This document shows, piece after piece, positions 4,703-16,679 of a stretch of 16,824 nt of DNA. Origin of the DNA: Elusimicrobiota bacterium. Its GTDB lineage: Bacteria > CG03 > SLGR01 > PWQF01. The stretch's first letter is position 1. Every line of letters begins with the position of its first letter. The translations under genes were made by a program, and so were the position numbers. The stretch spans positions 1-16,824 of the forward strand of contig PWOI01000096.1 of NCBI GenBank assembly GCA_003557485.1, given 5' to 3'. The notes beneath the pieces are model-generated. The model did no database searches and was not told where the DNA came from. It saw nothing but the letters and a program-made list of their open reading frames with translations.

Positions 4703-5659
4703 ATGGAACAGCGAATCGGTGGAAAAGAAAAAGAATTAAGGAATGTTCTTGTAACCGGCGGAGCCGGTTTTATAGGTTCGCATCTTACGGACGGACTTAT
4801 CAAAATGGGATTCAGGGTGACGGTAGTTGATAACCTGCAGACCGGGAAAAAAGACAATCTGAATCCTTCGTGCATTTTCAGAAAGATTGACATAAGGTCT
4901 CCCCGGATGGAAAAAGTATTCAGAAAGGGCAATTTCGACTCGGTCTTTCACCTTGCCGCCCAGCTGGATGTAAGGAAATCGGTAGAAGATCCGGGTTATG
5001 ATGCCGATGTAAATATATTAGGGGGCATAAACCTGCTTGAAAACTCACGGAAATACGGAGTAAAAAACTTCATTTTTGCCTCTTCGGGGGGTGTTATGTA
5101 CGGTGAATGCCCCGACAGGTATCCCGCCGAGGAACTTTACCCGGATCCGCTATGTCCTTACGGAAACTCTAAGGTTGCTTTTGAATTCTACCTGAATACG
5201 TACAGCCATCTTTACTCACTTAAAACATCATCTATGTGATTTGCCAATGTTTACGGCCCGCGCCAGGATGCCGGAGGTGAAGCAGGGGTCGTTGCAATTT
5301 TCACAGGCCGGATGCTCCGTGGAAAAGATATAAAAATTTTTGGAAACGGGAACCAGCTCAGGGACTATATCTATGTTGAAGATGTTGTGAGCGCCTGCAT
5401 CAGCGCGCTTGACACTCCGTGCGGAGTATGCAATATCGGAACGGGAGAATCAAGAAGCGTTAACGAGCTTTTTAAGATGATAAAGGATAAAACCGGCTAT
5501 GACAGTAATCCCATTTATGAACCAGCGCGTTCCGGCGAACTGCAGGCGAGCCGTATGAATGTTCAGAAAGCTGCTTCGGTTTTGGGCTGGAAAGCTCAAA
5601 CTTCCTTTGAATCCGGGATAGGCAAAACTATTGAATGGTTCAAAAATAACGATTTCTGA
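4703..5659 (+). pseudogene. GalE-like UDP-glucose 4-epimerase interrupted by one in-frame TGA
   Basis: One reading frame encodes a 318-codon extended-SDR epimerase, broken by a single TGA at 5237-5239 (codon 179). Before the stop are TGGAGFIGSH (18-27), VVDN, and Tyr153/Lys157 (YxxxK). After it, without a frame change, come FANVYGPRQDAGGEAGVVAIF and a complete C-terminal half with RDYIYVEDVV. The QD..GEAGVVAIF signature is typical of GalE-type UDP-glucose 4-epimerases. Aligned with the upstream epimerase, the TGA falls exactly on the Arg of LRYFNVFGP, so one C-to-T change (CGA to TGA) explains it. TGA is used as an ordinary stop elsewhere here (3992, 8282, 15437). No other damage is visible, so the mutation is recent or is a sequence error. 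A site GAAGGA (4685-4690) precedes the ATG. The final TGA overlaps the mutase ATG by one base. Confidence 0.85.
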
Positions 5660-11369: not shown

Positions 11370-12215
11370 ATGTCAAAAATGGATTCAATAAAACTTTATT
11401 TAAAGGAAGTCGCCAAGATTCCTACTATTTCAAAAGAAGAAATGAAGGAACTGAAACTGCAGCTTAAAAAGCGCAATAACGTAAAGGCAAAGGAACGCCT
11501 TATTAAAGGTAATCTGCGGCTTGTTATAAGCATAGCGAAAAAATATAACCGTGAGGGGGTTGACCTGAATGACCTTATAGAGGCGGGAAACATCGGACTC
11601 ATAGCGGCTTCAAATAAGTACGATCCTTCGAGGGGAACAAAGTTTTCAACTTATGCATATGACTGGATAAAAGAATATATAAGCCGCGCTGTTCTGGAAC
11701 ATACCCGTACGGTACACATACCTGTTTACATATACAACAACTTTAAAACTCTTATGAAGTCCTGGGATAAGATTACCAAGCAGACAGGCAGAACACCTGA
11801 CATAAGAGAACTGGCAAAAGAAACTGGATTCAAGCAGAAGGATATTAAAAAATTCCAATACTATATAAAAATATTCAGTGAGATACCTTCCCTTGACGCA
11901 CCCATTTCAAATGAAATAGATATCCCCCTGAAGGCTACTATAGCCGCTTCGGGCCATTATGATCCGGAAGACGCCCTGGGTCTTGTGGGTATGCACCAGC
12001 AGATAGAACATCTCCTGGAATCTGTTTCAGAACGTGAAAGCCAGGTTATAAAACTGAGGTTTGGAGTAGGAACATCTCATCCCCATACACTTCAGGATGT
12101 CGGGAAAAAGCTTAATATATCCCGTGAAAGAGTAAGACAGATTCAGAATAAGGCTATCAAGAAACTTAAAAAGGTTGCTGTAGATCTTGATAAAAGCGAA
12201 AAGGAAGGTATTTAA
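11370..12215 (+). CDS. Sigma-70-family RNA polymerase sigma factor (RpoS/RpoD group), divergent region 2.4
   Basis: A 281-residue sigma factor. Region 1.2 is at the start (DSIKLYLKEVAKIP), region 2 runs about 42-125 (NLRLVISIAKKYNREG, DLIEAGNIGL, FSTYAYDWIKEYISRAV), region 3 about 126-190 and region 4 to the end, with a helix-turn-helix QDVGKKLNISRERVRQIQ. Compared with the usual STYATWWIRQAITRAI, the first melting Trp is Asp98, Arg-Gln is Lys101-Glu102, and Thr is Ser105. Region 3.2 reads IDIPLKATIA in place of the usual acidic DSxLGDFI finger. This suggests altered promoter choice or melting. A good ribosome site AAAGGA (11355-11360) precedes the ATG. It follows the NlpD-like gene by 50 nt, recalling nlpD-rpoS, but RpoS identity is unproven. 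Its TAA overlaps the apt ATG by one base. Confidence 0.9.
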   Translation: MSKMDSIKLYLKEVAKIPTISKEEMKELKLQLKKRNNVKAKERLIKGNLRLVISIAKKYNREGVDLNDLIEAGNIGLIAASNKYDPSRGTKFSTYAYDWIKEYISRAVLEHTRTVHIPVYIYNNFKTLMKSWDKITKQTGRTPDIRELAKETGFKQKDIKKFQYYIKIFSEIPSLDAPISNEIDIPLKATIAASGHYDPEDALGLVGMHQQIEHLLESVSERESQVIKLRFGVGTSHPHTLQDVGKKLNISRERVRQIQNKAIKKLKKVAVDLDKSEKEGI

Positions 12216-12736
12216 TGGATCTTTCAAAATTTATAAGGAATGTCCCTGATTTTCCAAAAGAAGGGATACAGTTCAAGGATATAACAACCCTGCTTAATAA
12301 CCATAAAGCCTTTGAAGAGGCGGTCAGCTGTATGGAGTCTCTTTTCAAACAGGAAAAAGTTGACAGGGTTGTTGCCATTGAGTCCAGGGGTTTCATATTC
12401 GGCGCGCCGCTTGCGCTGAGACTGAAAGCGGGGCTGGTTCTTGTAAGAAAGAAAGGCAAACTTCCCTCCGAGACGCTCTCCGCGGAGTACCAGCTTGAAT
12501 ACGGTACGGATTCGCTTGAAATGCACAGTGATTCGGTAAAAGAGGGCGAAAAGGTTATAGTTGTGGACGACCTTTTAGCTACAGGCGGAACGACAGAGGC
12601 CGTAATAGAGCTTCTTGAAAAAGTAAAAGCCGAAATACTGGGAATATGCTTTCTTATAGAGCTTGACGGGCTTAACGGGAGAGAAAAGTTGAAAGGGTAT
12701 CCCCTGCACTCACTGCTTAAGCTTCCCTGCGATTAA
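12215..12736 (+). CDS. apt: Adenine phosphoribosyltransferase
   Basis: A 173-residue cytoplasmic purine-salvage enzyme making AMP from adenine and PRPP. The PRPP-binding motif VIVVDDLLATGGTT is at 114-127. AIESRGFIFGAPLA (54-67) and VRKKGKLPSETLSAEYQLEYG (77-97) are typical Apt segments, and the N-terminal VPDFPKEGIQFKDIT (10-24) matches the family. The length is standard. The ATG overlaps the sigma factor's TAA, and its own TAA is immediately followed by the TTG start of larE in the same frame, so it sits between regulation genes and the cofactor operon in one transcript. Confidence 0.96.
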   Translation: MDLSKFIRNVPDFPKEGIQFKDITTLLNNHKAFEEAVSCMESLFKQEKVDRVVAIESRGFIFGAPLALRLKAGLVLVRKKGKLPSETLSAEYQLEYGTDSLEMHSDSVKEGEKVIVVDDLLATGGTTEAVIELLEKVKAEILGICFLIELDGLNGREKLKGYPLHSLLKLPCD

Positions 12737-13555
12737 TTGTCTGAGGAATTAAAAAAAAAGATTGAGGATACCGTAAAATTTCTGGGCGGCCTCAAAACCG
12801 CCGCCCTTGCCTATTCCGGCGGAGTTGACAGCACACTTCTGCTTTATATGTTAAAGGACGCCGGACTTGAACAGCTGATTGCTGTAACAGCGCTTTCGAA
12901 AACTTACCCGAAAGATGATTTTGAAACGGTCTGCCGGCATATTAAAAAAACGGGAGTTAGCCATGTAAAGATTAAGACTTCGGAAACCGATAATTCTGAT
13001 TTCATATTCAACAGTCCCCGGCGGTGCTACTACTGTAAAAAGGAACTCTTTGAAAAAATTTCGGAGATTGCCCGGGAAAAAGGCATATTGAATCTTATCG
13101 ACGGCTCCAACTATGACGAGGAAAATGACCACAGGCCGGGTATGGAGGCGGCCCGCGAGCTTAAAGTTATAAGCCCTCTTAGAAGTTTCCGATGGACAAA
13201 AAATGATATAAGACAGGCTTCAGAGCATCTGGGAATAGAAGGTTACGGAAGGCCCCAGACTGTATGTCTTGCCTCAAGAATACCTTACGGTACGCCCGTT
13301 ACGGAGAACCTTCTGAAAAGGATCGGCGAAGCGGAGCGGGTTCTTAACTCTATGGGCTTTGAGACTGTCAGGGTTAGAAGTTCAGGCGATGAGGCCCGCA
13401 TAGAAGTAGAGGAAAAAGATATAGAGAAACTTGTCTCCCCGGAAACAAGGAAACATATATCTTCCAAACTGATAGAACTTGGTTTTAAGTTTGTTTCCGC
13501 GGACCTTGAAGGATTCAGAAGCGGTAAAATGAACCGCCTTTTAGATAATGAATGA
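12737..13555 (+). CDS. larE: LarE, sulfur-inserting ATP pyrophosphatase for the nickel-pincer cofactor
   Basis: A 272-residue PP-loop enzyme that adenylylates pyridinium-3,5-biscarboxylate mononucleotide and replaces carboxylate oxygen with sulfur. The P-loop SGGVDST lies at 27-33, and RRCYYCKKELF (95-105) and CLASRIPYG (177-185) are LarE signatures. Cys97, Cys100 and Cys177 together correspond to the three ligands of [4Fe-4S]-type LarE, such as Thermotoga maritima, rather than the single sacrificial cysteine of Lactiplantibacillus plantarum. The start is TTG abutting the apt stop. No earlier in-frame start exists because the preceding codon is that stop, and later ATGs fall after the P-loop. 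Nine A (12751-12759) follow closely. It overlaps larB by 8 nt. Confidence 0.93.
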   Translation: MSEELKKKIEDTVKFLGGLKTAALAYSGGVDSTLLLYMLKDAGLEQLIAVTALSKTYPKDDFETVCRHIKKTGVSHVKIKTSETDNSDFIFNSPRRCYYCKKELFEKISEIAREKGILNLIDGSNYDEENDHRPGMEAARELKVISPLRSFRWTKNDIRQASEHLGIEGYGRPQTVCLASRIPYGTPVTENLLKRIGEAERVLNSMGFETVRVRSSGDEARIEVEEKDIEKLVSPETRKHISSKLIELGFKFVSADLEGFRSGKMNRLLDNE

Positions 13556-14324
13556 AGAAAACCTTAAAAAAATAATTAAAGATATAAAAGAAGGCAGTCT
13601 TAGTGAAGAAAAAGCCCTGGAAAACCTTAAAAAACTTCCTTATCTTGATATGGGTTACGCCAGAGTTGACCTGCACAGGCAGATCCGTACCGGTTATCCT
13701 GAAGTTGTATTTGGTGAAGGTAAATCAGCCCTTCAGATAAAAGAAATAGCATCCAGAATTTATGAGAATCACGGAAGCGTTCTTGTGACGCGCATTGACG
13801 GTGAAAAATATGAAAAGATAAAAGATACTCTTCCCGGGCACCGATACAGCAGCGAAGGCAGAATACTTTATGCGGGCCAGTATCCTGAAACCAGAGGCGC
13901 CGCCGTGCCGGTACTTACCGCCGGGACCGCAGACCTTCCGGTTGCCGAGGAAGCTGCCTGGACGCTTGCCGCCAAGGGCTGCTCCGTAAAGAAAATATAT
14001 GACGCAGGGGTTTCCGGGATTCACAGGATGCTTTTATCACTTCAGGACCTGGAGGAGAGCAATGTAATAATTGTAATTGCCGGTATGGACGGAGTTCTTC
14101 CTTCCGTGGTAGGGGGCTGCGTTAAACAGCCTGTAATAGCTGTGCCGACTTCCACCGGTTACGGTGCCGGGGAGGGAGGGATAGCCCCGCTTCTTACTAT
14201 GCTTAACTCGTGCGCGCCGGGTGTTGTTGTAGTAAATATAGATAACGGTTTTGGCGCCGCCTGCGCTGCAGCATCCATAAATTCACTTGCCCCTGAAAAA
14301 GGAAAAGGAGATAATAAGCCGTGA
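13548..14324 (+). CDS. larB: LarB, nicotinic-acid adenine dinucleotide carboxylase/hydrolase
   Basis: A 258-residue protein of the AIR-carboxylase (PurE-like) superfamily. LarB carboxylates nicotinic acid adenine dinucleotide and hydrolyses the phosphoanhydride, starting NPN-cofactor synthesis. Family segments visible are LDMGYARVDLHRQIRTGYPE (33-52), TAGTADLPVAEEAAWT (124-139), GVSGIHRM (154-161), AGMDGVLPSVVGG (178-190) and VPTSTGYGAGEGG (199-211). Cys222 in LNSCAPG probably equals the cysteine that forms the pyridinium adduct in the L. plantarum enzyme; the assignment is from memory and hedged. Length is normal. It overlaps larE by 8 nt and larC by 4 nt (GTGA). Confidence 0.94.
   Translation: MNEENLKKIIKDIKEGSLSEEKALENLKKLPYLDMGYARVDLHRQIRTGYPEVVFGEGKSALQIKEIASRIYENHGSVLVTRIDGEKYEKIKDTLPGHRYSSEGRILYAGQYPETRGAAVPVLTAGTADLPVAEEAAWTLAAKGCSVKKIYDAGVSGIHRMLLSLQDLEESNVIIVIAGMDGVLPSVVGGCVKQPVIAVPTSTGYGAGEGGIAPLLTMLNSCAPGVVVVNIDNGFGAACAAASINSLAPEKGKGDNKP
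14305..14310 (+). promoter_or_regulatory. Ribosome binding site for larC
   Basis: AAGGAG lies 10 nt before the GTG at 14321. It supports that non-ATG start, which coincides with the conserved IYFDCF beginning of LarC. Confidence 0.7.
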
Positions 14325-15439
14325 TTTATTTTGACTGTTTCCAGGGGGCTTCGGCGGATATGCTCTGCGCATCGTTGCTGGACTGTCTTGCGCCGGGAAA
14401 ACTTGAAGAAAAACTTAACCTGTTAAGGGATACAAAAATAACGGTTAATACAGAAAAAACCTGCTCCGGCGGCATATCCGGAACAAAAGTTTCATTTGAA
14501 GTTGAAGGCAGCGCCCCCCCCGCAGATTTTGAAGGAATAAAAAAGTTAATTGATGAATCATCTCTTGAAAAAGAAATCAGCAGAAAAGTCATTGAAACAT
14601 ACACCGAAATTTTCAGGGCGGAGGCAGCAGTCCACGGCATAGCGCCGGAAAAAGTTAAACTGCACGAACTTGCCGCCCCGCGAAAGATTGCCGAAATAAC
14701 TGCTTTTCATGTTATGACAGCCGGCCGTGAAATTTTTTTCTCAGTGCCTGTTCTGGGCTGCGGAACTACCGGGTCGGCTCACGGAAAGATACCTCTGCCT
14801 TCCCCCGCAACCGCGGAGATACTTAAAGGCATTCCCGTATCTTTTACAGATTCTGAAAAAGAGATGGTTACCCCCTCGGCTGCTGCGCTTCTTAAGGTTT
14901 CCGGAAAACCTGTCCGTCCGGATATGGTTATAAGCTCTATCGGTTACGGTATAGGCAAAACAAGTATATTAAGGGCCTTTGCCGGCAAAAGAATTATTTC
15001 TGCCGAGTCCGGCATAACCGAACTGGAATTTAATGTTGACGATATGACCCCGGAAGATATTTCTTTTTTCACCGAAAAAATCTCTTCAGTTGCAGTTGAC
15101 TGCTGGGTAACCCCCGTTATAATGAAAAAATCCCGTCCGGGTCATATGGTAACAGTACTTACCGAAGATGAGAAGTTGGGGGTTGTGCAGGATATGATAT
15201 TTGAGCATACTTCTACTTCCGGCATAAGGTTAAAAAGAACGGGAAGAGCGGTTCTCAAAAGAGATATTGTCAATATTGATACGCCGCTTGGGCGGTGTCG
15301 GATTAAAAAGTATACCCTGCCCTCGGGAAAGGTCAGAGTCAAGCCCGAGTACGAGGACTTGAAACTTCTTGCCGAAAAAAACAGCATAAGCGTAGCCCTT
15401 GCAAGGGAAAAAGTAATTATGGAGTATAGTGATATATGA
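14321..15439 (+). CDS. larC: LarC, nickel insertase (CTP-dependent cyclometallase) for the NPN cofactor
   Basis: A 372-residue single-piece LarC, the enzyme that inserts nickel into the bis-thiocarboxylate pyridinium to complete the NPN cofactor. In L. plantarum this is made from larC1 and larC2 by frameshifting; here one frame suffices. Visible are the start MIYFDCFQGASADM, the core HGKIPLPSPATAEILKGIP (154-172), TPSAAALLKVSG and the second domain beginning near NVDDMTPEDI (238-247) with TPVIMKKSRPGH and KPEYEDLKLLA. The N-terminal motifs differ from the usual GISGDM and HEVGAxDSI: they read GASADM and HELAAPRK (115-122). A run of eight C (14514-14521) is a possible slippage point. GTG starts the gene at the GTGA overlap with larB. 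Its stop overlaps the next ATG by four bases. Confidence 0.92.
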   Translation: MIYFDCFQGASADMLCASLLDCLAPGKLEEKLNLLRDTKITVNTEKTCSGGISGTKVSFEVEGSAPPADFEGIKKLIDESSLEKEISRKVIETYTEIFRAEAAVHGIAPEKVKLHELAAPRKIAEITAFHVMTAGREIFFSVPVLGCGTTGSAHGKIPLPSPATAEILKGIPVSFTDSEKEMVTPSAAALLKVSGKPVRPDMVISSIGYGIGKTSILRAFAGKRIISAESGITELEFNVDDMTPEDISFFTEKISSVAVDCWVTPVIMKKSRPGHMVTVLTEDEKLGVVQDMIFEHTSTSGIRLKRTGRAVLKRDIVNIDTPLGRCRIKKYTLPSGKVRVKPEYEDLKLLAEKNSISVALAREKVIMEYSDI

Positions 15440-16539
15440 GTGATGTATATTTTGCGTCAAGGCGAAGCGGCCCGGGAAGCTCCCTGATAGATAAGACAAG
15501 AAAACTTATAAAAAAAATAAATTTCGCCTCCGAACTTAAGGAAAAAGATACGGTTGCGATAAAACTGCATTTCGGCGAGCCGGAACTGACGACTAACCTC
15601 AGGCCTGCGTTTGTAAGGCCTTTTGTTGAAGAGATAAAAAAAGCAAAAGCCCATCCTTTTCTGACCGATGCCAGCACTATTTACGCGGGTCCCCGCTCAG
15701 AGGGAGTTACCCATGCCTGTGTTGCCGAGAAGAATGGATTTACCCTTTACTCAACCGGAGCGCCGGTTGTGATAGCTGACGGTATAGACGGAAATAACTA
15801 TGTGGAAGTGCAGGTAAATACTCCCCATTATGATAAAGTTAAAGTAGCCGGTGAAGCTCACAGGGCCAAAGTAATGGTGGTTCTCTCACATTTCAAAGGT
15901 CACGAGATTTTTGGTTTCGGGGGAGCGGTTAAGAATATAGCAATGGGACTTGCAAGCAAGCAGGGGAAACTTTCTCTCCATTCTACCGTAACTCCGTTCA
16001 TAAAACAGAAGCTCTGCACTGCCTGCGGGAGGTGCGTGAGGTGGTGCGCACCCGGCGCAATTGAAATAAGGGGTAAAACTGCAGTAATAACGGGAAGCAA
16101 ATGTACCGGGTGCGGACACTGCATAATGGTATGCCCCGAAAAAGCTGCAAAGATCAAATGGGATATAGATTTTTCAGAGGCGCAGGAAAAGCTTGCCGAA
16201 TACGCCTGGGGAATAGTGGAGCCAAAAAAAGGAAAGATATGGTATTTTAATTTTCTTCTGGATATAACGCCGGAGTGCGACTGTTATACTTTCTCTGATT
16301 CAGCTCTTGTACACGATATAGGTATCCTTGCCTCGCGCGATCCTGTTTCAATAGATAGCGCTTCATATGATCTAGTAAAGAAAGCCGCCCCCAACCCCGA
16401 CAGCAAAGCCTCCAAAGCCGGCCCCGGTAAGGACAAATTCGCCGAGGGTTACCCTGATACAAACCCCGAACCAATGTTTAAAATGGCGGAGAAAATAGGC
16501 CTGGGTCAACGCCGTTATAAGCTTATTGAAATAGAATAA
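15436..16539 (+). CDS. DUF362 protein with two 4Fe-4S ferredoxin motifs
   Basis: A 367-residue cytoplasmic protein. The DUF362 part occupies most of the chain, with VAIKLHFGEP near the start, NYVEVQVNTPHYD, VLSHFKGHEIFGFGGAVKN and a C-terminal FNFLLDITPECDCYTFSD. Inserted are two iron-sulfur motifs: Cys194, 197, 200 with Cys204 (CTACGRCVRWCA) and Cys223, 226, 229 with Cys233 (CTGCGHCIMVCP). Such proteins are widespread in anaerobes and their reaction is unknown; electron transfer is a reasonable expectation from the clusters. It overlaps larC by four bases (ATGA), so it belongs to the NPN-cofactor transcript. A link to cofactor maturation or use is inference from position only. No transmembrane segment or signal peptide is visible. 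Confidence 0.9.
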   Translation: MSDVYFASRRSGPGSSLIDKTRKLIKKINFASELKEKDTVAIKLHFGEPELTTNLRPAFVRPFVEEIKKAKAHPFLTDASTIYAGPRSEGVTHACVAEKNGFTLYSTGAPVVIADGIDGNNYVEVQVNTPHYDKVKVAGEAHRAKVMVVLSHFKGHEIFGFGGAVKNIAMGLASKQGKLSLHSTVTPFIKQKLCTACGRCVRWCAPGAIEIRGKTAVITGSKCTGCGHCIMVCPEKAAKIKWDIDFSEAQEKLAEYAWGIVEPKKGKIWYFNFLLDITPECDCYTFSDSALVHDIGILASRDPVSIDSASYDLVKKAAPNPDSKASKAGPGKDKFAEGYPDTNPEPMFKMAEKIGLGQRRYKLIEIE

Positions 16540-16548
16540 ATCTCTGAG

Positions 16549-16574
16549 AAAAAGAAAGATTGAATTTTCTTTTT
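16549..16574 (+). terminator. Possible weak A/T-rich hairpin after the operon
   Basis: AAAAAGAAA (16549-16557) can pair with TTTCTTTTT (16566-16574), just after the DUF362 stop. The stem has a single G-C pair and is followed by TAATTTTA. It could terminate the long transcript but overlaps the tRNA promoter. Weak evidence. Confidence 0.3.
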
Positions 16575-16588
16575 TAATTTTATACAAT
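16560..16588 (+). promoter_or_regulatory. Sigma-70-type promoter for tRNA-Arg
   Basis: TTGAAT (16560-16565, 4 of 6 to TTGACA) and TACAAT (16583-16588, 5 of 6 to TATAAT) are separated by 17 nt. Initiation near 16595 would give a short leader before the tRNA at 16604. Confidence 0.6.
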
Positions 16589-16603: not shown

Positions 16604-16679
16604 ACCCCCGTAGCTCAGTGGATAGAGCACAGGTTTCCTAAACCTGGTGTCGAAGGTTCGATTCCTTCCGGGGGTGCCA
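16604..16679 (+). tRNA. tRNA-Arg (anticodon CCT)
   Basis: A complete cloverleaf of 76 nt. The acceptor stem ACCCCCG (16604-16610) pairs with CGGGGGT (16669-16675), followed by discriminator G and an encoded CCA (16677-16679). The D arm is GCTC/GAGC (16613-16616 with 16625-16628). The anticodon stem CAGGT/ACCTG has a loop with CCT at 16637-16639, reading AGG arginine codons, which are common in these genes. The T arm GAAGG-TTCGATT-CCTTC lies at 16652-16668. All stems pair perfectly. Confidence 0.97.

Follow-up and report, generated by a model that had tools for sequence, protein, structure and literature searches.

A LarA-fold DUF362 ferredoxin protein as a candidate client of the nickel-pincer cofactor in a larBCE operon without a detectable larA

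The nickel-pincer cofactor (NPN) is rare. To our knowledge, its use has been established for one enzyme, LarA, and the characterised NPN enzymes that we know of are all redox-neutral racemases and epimerases. In LarA, a lysine carries NPN through a thioamide and a histidine above the ring (His174 in Lactobacillus plantarum) serves as the acid/base; the lar operon of L. plantarum includes a nickel transporter. LarA has been loaded in Escherichia coli by adding larBCE only, and about 15% of surveyed genomes have larB, larE and larC without larA, for which a yet-to-be-identified NPN protein is likely (PMC11796402). DUF362 and DUF2088 belong to one Pfam clan, CL0471, and DUF362 has served as an outgroup for LarA (PMC11770544). 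That outgroup use was the only mention of DUF362 together with NPN that our literature search returned, and the search, which did not reach bioRxiv's own collection or the majority of subscription papers, found no paper proposing DUF362 as an NPN user; the common clan was already known.

The larE-larB-larC-DUF362 locus

We analysed a 16,824-nucleotide stretch of an Elusimicrobiota contig (the window). The open reading frames and family profiles bore out what an earlier note on this DNA had described, namely, that larE, larB, larC and a DUF362 gene follow one another on the plus strand with overlaps of 8, 4 and 4 nt (Table 1). LarB, LarE and LarC, the last encoded by one intact open reading frame holding both the LarC1 and LarC2 domains, all exceeded their curated cut-offs, identifying the locus as an NPN biosynthesis operon (larBCE). 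The larE gene starts with TTG and encodes 272 amino acids; Cys97, Cys100 and Cys177 together with an SGGVDS loop mark the product as a [4Fe-4S]-type LarE, of which the CxxC-C cysteine pattern is typical (PMC9283937). The gene layout suggests that all four genes are read as one transcript, which probably also includes apt. Since larE abuts apt and apt overlaps a sigma-factor gene by one base, this transcript may start further upstream. A promoter-like TTGAAT-17-TACAAT lies at 16560-16588, upstream of the tRNA-Arg(CCT) gene, and a promoter scan of the region was at chance level (7 matches versus 6.4 expected). Elsewhere in the window, an NDP-sugar epimerase-like gene (4703-5659) is broken by an in-frame TGA at 5237-5239, after which the frame resumes (FANVYGPRQ), consistent with a nonsense mutation or an assembly error.

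Like the L. plantarum lar operon, the locus combines NPN synthesis genes with a presumed client, and the DUF362 gene lies in the place expected for larA. As the earlier note had held, larA appears to be absent: there was no Lar_N (LarA) match in the window's genome, a metagenome-assembled genome (MAG) of 2.07 Mb in 212 contigs with 86.6% completeness.

Table 1. Features of the lar locus, with positions in the window
Feature	Position	Strand	Evidence or remark
Sigma-factor gene	11370-12215		overlaps apt by one base
apt, adenine phosphoribosyltransferase	12215..12736	+	directly abuts larE; order kept in relatives
larE, NPN sulfur transferase, [4Fe-4S] CxxC-C type	12737..13555	+	TIGR00268 269 bits, cut-off 150
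larB, pyridinium carboxylase of NPN synthesis	13548..14324	+	NF033503 276 bits, cut-off 175
larC, nickel insertion	14321..15439	+	Ni_insertion PF01969 309 bits; NF052512, TIGR00299
DUF362 protein, proposed NPN client	15436..16539	+	DUF362 PF04015 151 bits, cut-off 24
LarA-like signature of DUF362 protein, H152 to H182	15889..15981	+	profile alignments, motif count
Two-cluster [4Fe-4S] ferredoxin insertion, residues 186-241	15991..16158	+	two CxxCxxCxxxC clusters
Cys-Asp-Cys motif C281-D282-C283 of DUF362 protein	16276..16284	+	invariant in 44 relatives
tRNA-Arg (CCT), downstream	16604..16679	+	not counted in the system

Fold and signature of the DUF362 protein

The AlphaFold2 model of the DUF362 protein, built from nine sequences, had a pLDDT of 87.8 and a pTM of 0.88. 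Foldseek against the PDB placed LarA-superfamily chains at all of ranks 1 to 17 (best E, 2.3e-6). In VIA-align, the top twelve entries matched with Z scores of 16.4 to 18.0 and rmsd values of 3.0 to 3.6 Å over 214 to 231 residues, and eleven of them carried the annotation LarA or malate racemase, with NPN-bound LarA (5huq and 6c1w) among them; the next rows, at Z scores of about 10.8, were ferredoxin-bearing proteins. Thus, the protein is predicted to have the LarA fold, a match which alone proves no function. The predicted fold is common to it and the LarA/DUF2088 superfamily (lactate racemase, malate racemase Mar2 and LarA homologues; 5huq, 6c1w, 9eia, 7s91 and 9q3k) over approximately 220 residues. 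The good model was obtained once relatives from viral contigs were added; a first model from five close sequences (pLDDT 51) was discarded, and its top PDB match was LarA, at a level that was not significant. A one-sequence PDB search with the protein gave essentially only ferredoxin-type matches. Residues 186-241 superpose on the 2[4Fe-4S] ferredoxin 1fdn at 1.5 Å and match 1fca likewise; unlike in these ferredoxins, the domain is inserted into a LarA-fold protein.

The DUF362 protein holds SHFKGHEIFGFGGAVKN, followed by a histidine 16 residues past the lysine, while LarA proteins have H-x3-G-[FY]-x-GG-x-K and then a histidine at equal distance. The LarA spacing of 16 is documented for two enzymes, as K195/H211 and K183/H199 (PMC12611868). 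Profile-profile alignment with hhalign, made from shallow alignments (156 columns; E, 0.0004; probability only 36%), placed H156, K166 and H182 opposite the catalytic His174, the NPN-binding lysine and the nickel-ligand histidine of LarA, so that in sequence register K166 and H182 correspond to the covalent-NPN lysine and the nickel-ligand histidine 16 residues on. H156, at lysine minus 10 as in LarA, was invariant in 44 relatives. The strict motif H-x3-G-x5-K-x15-H occurred in 41 of the 44 relatives and in 1 of 600 background open reading frames; it was found in 9/10 LarA rows, the remaining row being divergent and having lost the lysine. Residues 138-194 of the Pfam Lar_N profile paired with residues 128-184 of the protein at equal lengths (E, 0.0043), and Lar_N matched 37/44 DUF362 relatives, with a best value of 4.5e-5.

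The window protein also differs from LarA. At 16.7 bits it scored below the curated cut-off of Lar_N (PF09861; 23.3 bits), and we therefore class it by clan and by its LarA-like fold only, and do not assign it to the LarA/DUF2088 family. It has 367 amino acids compared with about 430, and it carries the 2[4Fe-4S] ferredoxin insertion as well as a Cys-Asp-Cys that does not vary among the 44 relatives. No histidine stood opposite His108, the second catalytic histidine of LarA, in the profile alignment, which is weak there; H93 and H152 are conserved elsewhere. A shallow profile search with the protein retrieved no LarA.

Within the DUF362 family (PF04015), of which the protein is a clear member, nearly all subtypes have H-x9-K-N. 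The window subtype has the ferredoxin inserted after the signature, which reads GFGGAxKN, whereas another subtype has K-x-KTH...KN and C-terminal clusters; a second DUF362 protein in the window's genome (G000:C127:16899-17504, L177) is of this other subtype. A degenerate Cyanobacteriota group (L137-L145) has lost the lysine, mostly the clusters, and the Cys-Asp-Cys motif together, as would be expected if the three form one functional unit. DUF362 proteins with the Lys/His signature and without Fe-S clusters were also seen on IMG/VR viral contigs of 167-274 kb (L182:4908-5771 and L184:4962-5825), in one case inside a 1247-aa protein.

Linkage and co-occurrence with the lar genes

DUF362 adjoins larB or larC in three phyla, namely, that of the window (16 genomes sampled), Bacillota_A and Cyanobacteriota, so the linkage is not a peculiarity of this genome, the outcome that would have told against the earlier note. 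In the window's phylum, the gene lies directly 3' of larC in the window's genome (G000), G009, G012 and G014 and, across a contig break, in G011, the common arrangement being sigma-apt-(larE)-larB-larC-DUF362. The cluster itself is without larE in G009, G011 and G015; in the first two, DUF362 stands beside larB-larC, and in G015 the contig stops inside larC. Among Bacillota_A, DUF362 was adjacent to larB-larC in G022 and G197. The cyanobacterial genome G522 has larB-larC-cbiM-larE-DUF362, and G385 is alike with one extra gene before DUF362; CbiM is a Ni/Co transporter, and DUF362 again takes the place where larA would be expected. The protein in these two genomes has 286 amino acids and no Fe-S motifs but retains HFKGH...GFGGALKN...H and CDC. 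Within the DUF362 tree, the lar-linked proteins fall at three distinct places. Beyond the taxonomic order to which the window belongs, adjacency was rare (2/100 Bacillota_A genomes having both); the surroundings of larB at 20 Bacillota_A loci were for the most part larEBC clusters that had no LarA or DUF362 gene next to them, so missing adjacency is uninformative there.

A distinct DUF362 clade of ~380 aa lies directly beside larA at three Bacillota_A loci (L163, L164 and L165), and in this clade the nickel-ligand-type histidine appears to be shifted by an insertion. Matches of ~430 aa ("T1") beside larB in Vampirovibrionia-like genomes were rejected, as they were Fer4_5 polyferredoxins where checked and not DUF362. 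In such genomes (L202-L207 and L160), a Fer4_5 polyferredoxin lies near larB in the lar cluster, with TatC as well in L160.

In the window's phylum, DUF362 was present in 7/7 LarB-positive and 2/9 LarB-negative genomes, and LarA was present in one. Six of the seven LarB-positive genomes were without LarA, including G009 (94% complete), G011 (94%) and G014 (97%). The LarB-negative genomes G006 and G008 carry type I DUF362 (an A1 alignment match with E below 1e-55) with the lysine kept. Among 299 Bacillota_A genomes, LarB was found in 157, LarA in 150, DUF362 in 234 and type I DUF362 in 126. DUF362 accompanied 148 of the 157 LarB-positive genomes versus 86 of the 142 LarB-negative ones, an odds ratio of 10.7, compared with the weaker 2.3 for LarB and LarA; ancestry was uncontrolled in both, and thus only the direction and relative size of the associations, and not p-values, are usable. 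Within the LarB-positive genomes, 54 had DUF362 without LarA, none had LarA without DUF362, and 9 had neither. Type I DUF362 was carried by 37/63 LarB-positive and 6/86 LarB-negative genomes when LarA was absent. In a logistic model including genome size and other DUF362, the odds ratio was 3.8 for type I and 0.9 for other DUF362; in genomes without type I, non-type-I DUF362 also tracks LarB. Type I DUF362 was found in 26 LarB-negative Bacillota_A genomes, and gaps in MAGs add to such cases. LarA was equally loose: LarB went unmatched in 56 of the 150 LarA-positive genomes, for which incomplete genomes, salvage, a different LarB or LarA-like proteins that do without NPN are candidate reasons.

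The situation was different in Cyanobacteriota, where 152 of 244 genomes had LarB and 3 had LarA. Type I-like DUF362 occurred in just 12 of the 152, leaving 140 without it, and we therefore reject DUF362 as a universal NPN client; it can be a client but is not everywhere the client. All six genomes with the short DUF362 were LarB positive, which was not significant (p 0.086).

Proposed role and alternatives

On balance, the DUF362 protein is itself probably a client of the NPN that larBCE supplies, and would be an enzyme of the LarA fold that works through K166, H182 and H156. By analogy with LarA, K166 would bind NPN by a thioamide link, H182 would ligate nickel, H156 would serve as acid/base, and a substrate hydride would move to the NPN pyridinium. 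The reactions of LarA are redox neutral, and the presence of attached clusters points to a way out for electrons or to reactivation of an oxidised cofactor. The built-in 2[4Fe-4S] ferredoxin probably would let electrons leave or enter, and the outcome would be either a net redox conversion of a hydroxy-acid-like substrate, in the direction of oxidation or of reduction, or the reactivation of oxidised cofactor. Because a version free of Fe-S clusters exists, the core can do without them, and the redox step, which we propose tentatively, is less certain than NPN binding, which we consider probable. It is possible, at that lower level of confidence, that DUF362-ferredoxin proteins form a second NPN enzyme class of net oxidoreductases, in which [4Fe-4S] clusters would be electrically coupled to a hydride carrier of the nickel-pincer kind.

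We consider it unlikely that the protein only binds NPN as a carrier, insertase or repair protein, delivering or re-reducing it for other enzymes including LarA. Such a role would fit the LarA fold with its NPN-site residues, the presence of a DUF362 protein in 94/94 Bacillota_A genomes positive for both LarA and LarB, and the location of a DUF362 clade beside larA in G056, G098 and G195. However, larBCE alone suffices to load LarA in E. coli (PMC11796402), and the window's genome shows no other client. Equally unlikely is an NPN-independent redox protein with an inherited LarA fold, whose linkage to larB and larC would be regulatory or coincidental. DUF362 with the lysine kept in LarB-negative genomes speaks for it, as does the H-x9-K-N of nearly all subtypes in a family more widespread than larB, whereas linkage in three phyla, placement with larBCE and the CbiM transporter, an association with LarB exceeding that of LarA, and retention of the nickel-ligand-type histidine at LarA spacing argue against it.

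The earlier note, whose gene order and lack of a detectable larA hold, had gone on to suggest that the ferredoxin reduces or repairs the LarE [4Fe-4S] cluster or aids NPN synthesis, with a LarA-type client elsewhere, and this part fared worse. LarE is of the [4Fe-4S] type, a reductant has been suggested as needed for forming its [4Fe-5S] cluster (PMC9283937), and the DUF362 protein combines two [4Fe-4S] clusters with tight gene overlap. In contrast, DUF362 lies beside larB-larC in the G009 and G011 clusters without larE, Fe-S clusters are missing from the G522 and G385 versions, the conserved core is itself LarA-like in its predicted fold and carries residues of the NPN site, and LarA was not found in the window's genome. 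A helper of LarE is thus somewhat less likely still than the two preceding readings, and the fold, the signature, the larE-less linkage and the cluster-free versions make DUF362 itself the likelier client. It is very improbable that the user of NPN is an ordinary LarA homologue encoded in the unassembled part of the genome, roughly 13%, since, although the MAG is fragmentary, six of the seven LarB-positive genomes of the phylum are without LarA and all have DUF362.

For a bacterium with larBCE and no detectable larA, the DUF362 protein of the same operon is a concrete candidate for the missing NPN user and, as it sits in the synthesis operon and has the LarA fold in prediction, one that can be tested in the published E. 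coli co-expression system. It would leave unexplained the photosynthetic cyanobacteria, where in most cases type I-like DUF362 appears to be lacking. If DUF362 does use NPN, a widespread and unassigned family, found in 234 of the 299 Bacillota_A genomes sampled, would gain a function, and the chemistry of NPN might be widened to net redox reactions.
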